Source: Chloroflexota bacterium (GTDB lineage Bacteria > Chloroflexota > Dehalococcoidia > Bin125). From it: a stretch of DNA of 64,000 nt. Both the position numbers and the translations under genes were made by a program. The first letter of the stretch is position 1. Every line of letters starts with the position of its first letter. Location of the stretch: NCBI GenBank assembly GCA_009838915.1, contig VXQT01000025.1, forward strand, positions 1-64,000, read 5' to 3'. Positions 1,418 to 53,510 of the stretch are shown piece by piece. The notes beneath the pieces are model-generated. The model was not told where the DNA came from. It saw only the letters and a program-made list of their open reading frames with translations, and searched no databases.

Positions 1418-1466
1418 TCCCTCTCCCCCCGCTTCCGCGGGGGGAGATGCCGAAGGCAGAGGGGGG
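1418..1466. repeat. Palindromic repeat family A
   Basis: tccctctccccccgcttccgcggggggagatgccgaaggcagagggggg. Confidence 0.88.
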
Positions 1467-1530
1467 CAGCCCGTACCGCTCCCTATGATGGTGAGCAGTT
1501 GCCGCCACCGGACCGCGAGAGGATTCCCCC

Positions 1531-5401: not shown

Positions 5402-5457
5402 AGGGGAGCCCCCCTCTGCCTTCGGCATCTCCCCCCGCTGCGCGGGGGGAGAGGGGA
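5402..5457. repeat. Palindromic repeat family A
   Basis: aggggagcccccctctgccttcggcatctccccccgctgcgcggggggagagggga. Confidence 0.9.
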
Positions 5458-6786: not shown

Positions 6787-6932
6787 CTGCCCCCTGGGGG
6801 GAAGCTCCCGCGTAGCGGGTGAAGGGGGGAACGCCCCACGAACCGCGTGCGGCGAGCCCCCCTCTGTCCCCCCGCCTTCGCGGGGGCAGGCTCTACGGGA
6901 CATCTCCCCCCGCTCGCGCGGGGGGAGAGGGG
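6787..6932. repeat. Cluster of palindromic repeats (family A and variants)
   Basis: ctgccccctggggggaagctcccgcgtagcgggtgaaggggggaa ... agcccccctctgtccccccgccttcgcgggggcagg ... catctccccccgctcgcgcggggggagagggg. Confidence 0.88.
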
Positions 6933-6938
6933 AATCAG

Positions 6939-10863: not shown

Positions 10864-11004
10864 GGGGAGCCCCCTCTGCCTTCGGCATCTCCCCCCGCAG
10901 AGCGGGGGGAGAGGGTGTGTGTTCTGGCTCGTCTCCCCCCGCAGAGCGGGGGGAGAGAATGTGTGTGTTCTGGCACGTCTTCCTCCGCAGAGCGGGGGGA
11001 GAGT
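10864..11004. repeat. Palindromic repeat locally present as three consecutive hairpin units
   Basis: ctccccccgcagagcggggggagag / tctccccccgcagagcggggggagag / cctccgcagagcggggggagag separated by near-identical tgtgtgttctggc(t/a)cgtct. Confidence 0.9.
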
Positions 11005-22503: not shown

Positions 22504-22556
22504 GAGCCCCCCTCTGCCTTCGGCATCTCCCCCCGCTGGCGCGGGGGGAGAGGGGC
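22504..22556. repeat. Palindromic repeat family A
   Basis: gagcccccctctgccttcggcatctccccccgctggcgcggggggagagggg. Confidence 0.9.
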
Positions 22557-23900: not shown

Positions 23901-25859
23901 CTACACGTAGCGATCGAACCACGCGACCAAGCGCTCGTAGTACTCCTTGACGAGCGCCGGATCGCCGACCCGCATCATCAGGTGGGAGCAGCCGGGGAAG
24001 CGGACCATCTCGGCGGTCTTGCCTCGATAACGCAGGCCGGCGAAGTACTCCTCGCCCTGGGAGATTGGCACCCGCCAGTCGTGCTCGCCGTGCAGGATCA
24101 GCACCGGGCACTGCACGTTCTGGACATAGGTGATCGGCGAGCGCTCGCGGTACCAGTCGAAGTTGTCGTCGGGCACCTCGCCCCACTGGTACGAGCCCCA
24201 GGACGGCCCGATGTCGGAGACGCCCCACATCGACCACAGGTTGACCACGGGCGCGCCGGCGACGGCGGCCTTGAAGCGGTGGTCGTGACCGATCAGCCAG
24301 GCAGTCATGTAGCCGCCGTAGGAGTAGCCGTGGACGCCCAGCCGATTCACGTCAACGTAGGGTCGCTCGCAGACCACGTCGAGCGCGTGGAGCAGATCAA
24401 GCGAGTCCTCGCCGCCCCAGTCGACCGTGACGGCGTCGGTGAACTTCGCGCCGTACGTCGATGAGCCGCGCGGATTGACGAAAAGGACGAGGTAGCCCGC
24501 GCCGGCAATGACCTGATGCAGAACATTGAAGCCTTCGCCGAAGAACCCGTTGGGTCCGCCGTGAATCTCCATGACCAGCGGATACGACTGCTTGGGGTCG
24601 AACCCGGGCGGGTAGACGAGGCCGCAGGGAATCTCCCAGCCGTCGCGCTCGACGCTGAAGAACTCGACATCGCCAATCTCGTGGGCGTCGACAAAGTCCG
24701 CGGACGACCGCGTGAGGGCGGGTCCTCTCTCCCCCCGCGAAGCGGGGGGAGAAGGGAATGTGACGACTTCTCCCGGCGCGTCGGGAGTCGTTGACACGAT
24801 GGCGATCGATTGTCCGTCGTCCGAGACGTCGAATCCATTGATTAGCTCGGCCTCGGCGCGGACGGCGTGAGTCGGTTCGGAGCCGTCCGACCTGACCCGG
24901 TAGACGCCTGAACGTCCGCGAGCGTCTCCTGCGAACGTGATCTCATCGCCGGCCCAGACCATCGTCGGCGGGCCGGCGATCGGGAAGAAGCCGGTCTGCG
25001 GGTTCACCGTGTCGTCGGTCAGGCGCGTACGCTTGCCGCTGTATCGCTCGACGCGCTCCAGGTAGGCCTGGTGACGCTGCGACATGTCGGTGACCGATAC
25101 CGCTAGCGCGGAGCCGTCGGGCGACCAGCACGGTCTTCCGCCCGACATGATGCCCGGCGTCAACCGCTCGACGTGCCCGCCGCCGGCGACTCCCTGTGTG
25201 GACATGACGCAGAGCTCGGAGCCGAACGGGCGGCGCTTCTCGCGGTCGACGTTGCGGTCGGCGGTGAACGCGACCCAGCGCCCGTCGGGCGAGACGACCG
25301 GATGGGCGTGGTTGTAGGAGCCGGTCGTGAGTTGCAGCGCGGCGCCGGTTCCGGCGTCGATGCGGAAGAGCTGGTGCCAGGCATCCTCGCGGTAGCCCAG
25401 TGCGTCGCCTCGGTAGTAGGTGTCGCGGACGACGGTCGTCTTCGAGCCGTCGCGGCGGCCGCGGTGCGGGTCGATGTCGACGGTGGCGATCATCCCCGAA
25501 CCGTCGGGGAGCCAGTCGAAGCCTGCGACCGAATGCGGCAGGTCGGTGAGCTTGCGAGCCTCGCCGCCGTCCGAGGGCAGCAGCCAGATCTGACGCGGCG
25601 CGCCGTCCTCGGAGGAGCCGGGCCGCAGTAATGCGAGCGTCGAGCCGTCAGGCGACCAAATCGGACCGGAGTCCGAGTTGCCGGACGTGAGGCGTCGGCT
25701 GTCGCCGCCGGCAAAGGGAGCGCACTCGATCCAGGACACGCGCTTGCCGTTGTCGACCTGTCCGCGCACATAGGCGACCACGGAACCGTCCGGGGAGATC
25801 GCGGGCGACGAAACACCGCCCAGCTCAAACACGATTTCCGGACCGATAGGAGTCTTCAT
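23901..25859 (-). CDS. S9 family prolyl oligopeptidase / acylaminoacyl-peptidase-like
   Basis: N-terminal WD40-like beta-propeller (SPDGSVVAYVRG, WSPDGSTLALL); catalytic GVHGYSYGGYMTAWL; FPGCSHLM. Confidence 0.93.
   Translation of the reverse strand: MKTPIGPEIVFELGGVSSPAISPDGSVVAYVRGQVDNGKRVSWIECAPFAGGDSRRLTSGNSDSGPIWSPDGSTLALLRPGSSEDGAPRQIWLLPSDGGEARKLTDLPHSVAGFDWLPDGSGMIATVDIDPHRGRRDGSKTTVVRDTYYRGDALGYREDAWHQLFRIDAGTGAALQLTTGSYNHAHPVVSPDGRWVAFTADRNVDREKRRPFGSELCVMSTQGVAGGGHVERLTPGIMSGGRPCWSPDGSALAVSVTDMSQRHQAYLERVERYSGKRTRLTDDTVNPQTGFFPIAGPPTMVWAGDEITFAGDARGRSGVYRVRSDGSEPTHAVRAEAELINGFDVSDDGQSIAIVSTTPDAPGEVVTFPSPPASRGERGPALTRSSADFVDAHEIGDVEFFSVERDGWEIPCGLVYPPGFDPKQSYPLVMEIHGGPNGFFGEGFNVLHQVIAGAGYLVLFVNPRGSSTYGAKFTDAVTVDWGGEDSLDLLHALDVVCERPYVDVNRLGVHGYSYGGYMTAWLIGHDHRFKAAVAGAPVVNLWSMWGVSDIGPSWGSYQWGEVPDDNFDWYRERSPITYVQNVQCPVLILHGEHDWRVPISQGEEYFAGLRYRGKTAEMVRFPGCSHLMMRVGDPALVKEYYERLVAWFDRYV
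24724..24756. repeat. Palindromic repeat family A embedded in the S9 peptidase CDS
   Basis: cctctctccccccgcgaagcggggggagaaggg; read in frame as FPSPPASRGERGP. Confidence 0.88.
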
Positions 25860-46557: not shown

Positions 46558-46611
46558 TCCTCTCCCCCCGCTCCGCGGGGGGAGATGTCCCGCAGGGACA
46601 GAGGGGGGCAC
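46558..46611. repeat. Palindromic repeat family A
   Basis: cctctccccccgctccgcggggggagatgtcccgcagggacagaggggggca. Confidence 0.88.
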
Positions 46612-53432: not shown

Positions 53433-53510
53433 GCCCCCGGCCCCCTGCGTACGCAGGGGCTGGCGCTGCGGCATCTCCGCCCGCTCTGCGGGGGGAGAGA
53501 GGAGGGCTTG
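53433..53510. repeat. Composite palindromic repeat (family A variant)
   Basis: ccccctgcgtacgcaggggctggcgctgcggcatctccgcccgctctgcggggggagagagg. Confidence 0.75.

Follow-up and report, generated by a model that had tools for sequence, protein, structure and literature searches.

A dispersed hairpin repeat carried in frame in an exposed loop of a predicted S9 peptidase in a Dehalococcoidia genus

Protein-embedded palindromes are best known so far from Rickettsia and some Proteobacteria. The Rickettsia palindromic elements (RPEs; Ogata et al. 2000, reviewed in PMC2229807), 105-146 bp in length, are the classic palindromes found inside proteins, and the RPEs of R. conorii end in CGTC (PMC3733652). 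REPs of the GTAG/CGTC type also occur inside many ORFs, with DnaE2 among the targets, and two recB genes from two Xanthomonas species were invaded by a REP at about the same site; GTAG repeats have been reported from Chloroflexi as well (PMC3733652). For the element family considered here, no literature report was found in open-access papers.

The window analyzed in this study is a stretch of 64,000 nucleotides from contig VXQT01000025.1 of a Dehalococcoidia bacterium (genome G000). The features of the locus of interest are as follows:

23901-25859, minus strand: gene of the S9 (prolyl oligopeptidase) family, a single intact ORF of 652 aa, Pfam PF00326
24717-24758, minus strand: repeat-derived codons 368-381 (FPSPPASRGERGPA), delimited by the ortholog alignment and by a low-confidence turn in the AlphaFold model
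24728-24752, strand-neutral: hairpin 1 of the element, from the sequence, compared with 122 full elements

The product of this gene matches Pfam Peptidase_S9 (E=5e-50), and propeller repeats are found in its N-terminal part. Pfam, homologues, AlphaFold and Foldseek place it in the S9 family as a beta-propeller joined to an alpha/beta hydrolase with a Ser-Asp-His triad. S513, D594 and H626, the catalytic residues, do not vary among the 24 homologues compared. The AlphaFold model, based on an alignment of 24 sequences, has a mean pLDDT of 86, and its best PDB match in Foldseek is 8wt1, the solved S9 carboxypeptidase of Geobacillus (TM-score 0.90). With the insert left out, dN/dS against relatives is ~0.08 (range 0.05-0.14), and the gene, by these codon comparisons, is under purifying selection.

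The initial annotation had reported a palindrome at 24724-24756, in frame within this gene and in the linker between the two domains. The in-frame position holds, the gene being one open frame over its whole length; the coordinates are right within a few bases, the perfect hairpin being that at 24728-24752, and the quoted minus-strand peptide is correct. The location needs refinement: the insert indeed lies just before the hinge but, in the AlphaFold model, it forms the turn after strand 361-369 in the last propeller beta-hairpin (block pLDDT ~57) and not the interdomain linker itself. It immediately precedes the helix leading to the catalytic domain. Sequence and model together confirm that the hairpin repeat is now part of a predicted functional S9 peptidase, in an apparently exposed loop.

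The hairpin is 25 nt long and perfect, TCTCCCCCCGC-GAA-GCGGGGGGAGA, with 11-bp arms and a 3-nt loop. Codons 368-381 stand in place of a shorter turn of the orthologues (IGDDTQAV), with a net gain of 18 nt, and the peptide encoded at the insert is FPSPPASRGER (stretch FPSPPASRGERGPALT). The repeat was never produced by shuffled windows. The arms of the window copy have stayed perfect despite ~0.3 silent substitutions per site per lineage, the probability of no change in 22 nt being ~0.001.

The full element is ~50 nt long (46-53) and consists of two hairpins; oriented copies read CTCTCCCCCC-GC-NNN-GC-GGGGGGAG, followed by ATG, hairpin 2 and CAGAGGGGGGC, the element ends being CTCTCCCCCC and GAGGGGGGC. 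Hairpin 2 has five stem types (CC/GG, TCCC/GGGA, TCAC/GTGA, TCGC/GCGA and TCTC/GAGA); its stems are complementary in 117 of 122 full elements and covary. No constant end tag was found in oriented copies, GTAG occurring only inside some hairpin 2 loops, and no structured RNA of Rfam matched in the window. The embedded S9 copy is devoid of hairpin 2 and of the GAGGGGGGC end. We regard it as very probable that the S9 segment is a copy of this dispersed, non-coding, REP-like element, an account that as a whole explains the data best. Compared with random 50-mers from the genome, the elements have somewhat fewer stop codons in five of the six frames, and the translations are short peptides rich in proline, glycine and charge. 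An in-frame copy in an exposed turn would be tolerated, having few stops in any frame and giving short, turn-forming peptides that are presumably neutral, while selection, as a putative filter, would remove copies elsewhere in coding DNA.

Same-genus orthologues of the peptidase were gathered by two routes (n=13). Nine lack the segment, as was to be checked according to the initial annotation, and have a short turn such as EIVAIGDDTQAVLT, with a length conserved throughout the genus and also in its deep branch G006. The inserted residues are absent from all orthologues that are free of the repeat. A repeat-derived peptide occupies the same turn in the window genome and in G010, G013 and G008, and these four proteins differ from the others at this single place, which reads EVVTFPSPPASRGERGPALT in the window genome. 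Their lengths are 652, 660, 667 and 674 aa, compared to 642-647 aa without the insert.

Two repeat copies are found at the turn in G010, and a remnant of hairpin 2 is kept in G013, which suggests that the window copy has lost its own hairpin 2. In G000, G010 and G013 the element lies head first on the coding strand and is preceded by similar codons (GTCACATTC); a single arrival in their common ancestor is therefore likely. The G008 element is tail first, in the opposite orientation, and thus arrived separately. The rpoB tree groups G000, G003, G010 and G013 with support 99 and leaves G008 outside. Most simply, the short turn is ancestral, and the repeat reached this position on at least two occasions. 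The suggestion that the repeat is or was mobile can be upheld in the evolutionary sense, given a dispersed, lineage-specific family and the independent arrivals marked by the orientation in G008. In the ancestor of G000, G010 and G013, the element very probably entered the last propeller beta-hairpin turn, by insertion or by replacement of the turn, and has since been remodeled. No target-site duplication, a hallmark of MITEs, was readable in 61 filled/empty pairs at 23 sites, the flanks being too diverged; exact insertion points are blurred because the divergence between species is high (dS ~0.6 or more).

The same comparison bears on two other explanations. A multi-copy repeat in a draft genome could be an artefact of assembly or sequencing, which is barely credible for a site that is occupied by different inserts in four independently assembled genomes, at exactly the same position, with unique flanks and one frame, and the window copy of which lies deep inside the contig. 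The insert could also be an adaptive linker that alters domain movement or substrate access, as it is kept in three related genomes near the propeller/catalytic hinge; however, its length and sequence differ in all four genomes, which fits weak constraint, and we consider such a role highly improbable. The copied, tolerated repeat remains our preferred reading.

Other copies in the window, in order of position, are:

1421-1467, plus strand: full two-hairpin element, intergenic
5405-5457, minus strand: full two-hairpin element, intergenic
6853-6933, minus strand: element whose hairpin 2 contains a second, nested palindrome (CCCCCCGCCTTCGCGGGGGCAG; at, e.g., 6866)
10870-11003, minus strand: element followed by two more hairpin 1 copies at ~45-nt spacing (three head-to-tail hairpin 1 copies at 10888-11003)
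22506-22554, minus strand: full two-hairpin element upstream of a transporter gene, the start of which is over-called in the ORF list
42975-43024, plus strand: two-hairpin element, slightly diverged
46560-46607, plus strand: full two-hairpin element, second stem of the TCCC/GGGA type
53474-53503, minus strand: copy of hairpin 1 close to where a called gene begins; the true start probably lies downstream of it

The second palindrome family (CTGCCCCCGCCTTCGCGGGGGCAG) was also seen nested in hairpin 2 outside 6853-6933, at L159 11098, L174 9901 and L161 3233.

The GC-stem form of the element was found in all 15 genomes of the genus, with 1-176 sites each, and in none of the 46 other genomes sampled in the class. 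The loose pattern gives 176 sites, and the element is thus a short, high-copy, mainly extragenic palindrome. Strand-specific matches in the window's genome number 142, compared with 0 for the reversed-pattern control. In the census, which covered 751 kb of this genome and used gene calls from a simple codon-usage script, so that the classes are approximate, 110 of the 142 copies are intergenic, as the initial annotation had described the family, 25 are located at the borders of genes or in linkers and 7 fall unambiguously within coding DNA. The coding fraction is 0.80, and copies are depleted in coding DNA (binomial <1e-48) even when all 32 non-intergenic copies are counted. Some species, such as G005, carry their own variants of the same plan without the GC stem, because of which strict-pattern counts understate some genomes; G005 was dropped as a repeat-poor reference for holding such a variant. 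The relaxed pattern, applied across the phylum, retrieved palindromes from other Chloroflexota families that look related yet differ and, among the matches listed, one genus-type copy outside the genus, in G234.

Most copies are single. G000 has 14 inverted tail-to-tail doublets, of which 13 are spaced by 23-24 nt, and among the ten genus genomes searched such doublets were found only there and in the sister genome G003. The G000 doublets with this spacer are concentrated on few small contigs (C9, C12 and C2).

Copies are enriched in convergent and depleted in divergent gaps (odds ratio 3.9, p=0.003). This distribution, the perfect arms of the window copy and the family-wide covariation of the stems would be consistent with a regulatory mRNA hairpin acting in ribosome pausing or decay, the coding role of the embedded copy being a by-product. 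Nine orthologues do without the hairpin, however, and where present the hairpins differ by lineage and occur in either orientation, which makes this function quite improbable at the S9 site.

In-frame copies are not restricted to the S9 gene. Further carriers are a DNA polymerase III alpha subunit of the error-prone type, a terminase-like protein, a DUF885 protein and two adjacent hot-dog-like paralogues (a name read from the sequence, with no match in Pfam). Palindromes also occupy the interdomain linkers of four double CaiB/BaiF CoA-transferase genes (L161 8662-11094, L181 16065-18548, L154 10501-13044 and L164 13276-15924). In G005, the linker of the counterpart of the first of these genes holds that species' own variant.

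The hot-dog turn, ITTRV-TPTDSG-VEFTM, is filled by different variants in G000, G003, G005 and G008 and is empty in six other genomes, which suggests at least three gains. The hot-dog gene of G003 contains several nested or serial copies. The second hot-dog-like paralogue of G000 (L161 17148-17999, minus strand, contig C24) combines an in-frame repeat with a TGA outside the insert (WLDEG*VEF) and is either a pseudogene or affected by a sequence error; therefore, not every decorated gene is clearly functional.

The polymerase loop preceding RLGLGMIKDIG is filled in G000, G003, G010 (which has three copies), G013, G008, G011 and G007, and is empty in the neighbours G009 and G006 and in the outgroup G025. 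At least four gains are indicated, less firmly since the genus has polymerase paralogues, which also disqualified this gene as a species marker. Two genomes, G009 (contigs C25 and C35) and G025 (contigs C21 and C25), each contain two paralogous genes for polymerases of the error-prone type. Across related bacteria, several proteins show repeated entry of such elements into the same loop. The few permissive loops, namely the S9 turn, the hot-dog turn and the polymerase loop, have each received lineage-specific variants on several occasions.

Recurrence of this kind could reflect targeting and not only tolerance, if the loops are true insertion hot spots where the machinery favours particular DNA sites or palindromes already in place, with renewal of the copies. 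The gains at the same loop (at least two, three and four in the three gene families), the nested or serial copies in the S9 and polymerase genes of G010 and the hot-dog gene of G003, and the perfect arms of the window copy, with their chance of ~0.001, would all fit. Yet no motif is evident among the empty target sites, the hairpins predicted at them stand out within their genes only at the polymerase loop, and survivors would gather in few loops under tolerance alone as well; we treat hot spots as a tentative and rather doubtful possibility. Folding energies of the empty sites fall at percentiles 0.06-0.77 within genes for S9 and 0.08-0.84 for the hot-dog genes, and lower, at 0.01-0.14, for the polymerase loop. 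The empty S9 site of some species (GTCGCC-ATC-GGCGAC) and the empty hot-dog sites resemble small inverted repeats; with their unexceptional folding energies, hairpin targeting finds no general support. It is unlikely, going further, that certain protein loops are lasting DNA-level landing pads at which a RAYT-independent process repeatedly deposits or refreshes palindromes particular to each lineage, always at the same codons; if true, the loop length and composition of conserved enzymes would be driven by a DNA repeat.

With in-frame arrival followed by tolerance as the preferred reading, spread of the element would occur mainly between genes, possibly via single-strand hairpin copying by some enzyme. 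The candidate suggested by REP biology, RAYT, was rejected as the mover: G000 lacks the Y1_Tnp domain (PF01797), as do 13 of the 14 other genus genomes, all drafts. The sole trace of a Y1 transposase in the genus is a borderline match at G008:C5:81494-81673. This raises the question of what moves REP-like repeats without a REP-type transposase. The genus, with its many species, offers filled and empty loops in several enzymes and independent arrivals, a record that makes it testable whether such repeats are merely tolerated or steered, and whether new loops really arise from them.

The parallel with the Rickettsia RPEs drawn in the initial annotation is apt for the outcome, an in-frame palindrome in a tolerant place of a retained protein, but does not demonstrate kinship. 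In both cases a dispersed palindrome lies between genes and in frame in conserved protein genes, is absent from orthologues and leaves an apparently functional product. The element described here differs in being ~50 nt long, GC-rich and built of two small hairpins, with a different sequence and without the CGTC end, and it belongs to another phylum. Some of its copies resemble REPINs or BIMEs with RAYT (PMC3116915, PMC2817692) in being arranged as inverted pairs whose spacer is fixed at 23-24 nt; here, however, doublets are a minority, seen in two of the ten genus genomes searched, and the Y1 transposase is missing from 14 of the 15 genomes. Intragenic REPs (PMC3733652) are likewise short and mostly intergenic, with some in-frame copies, including those in error-prone DnaE2, whereas our element has no GTAG/CGTC tag, is a two-hairpin unit with a varied second stem and recurs in the same loops. 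The kind of phenomenon is thus already documented, and it is seen here with an unusually clear record of filled and empty sites and with recurrence in three gene families.
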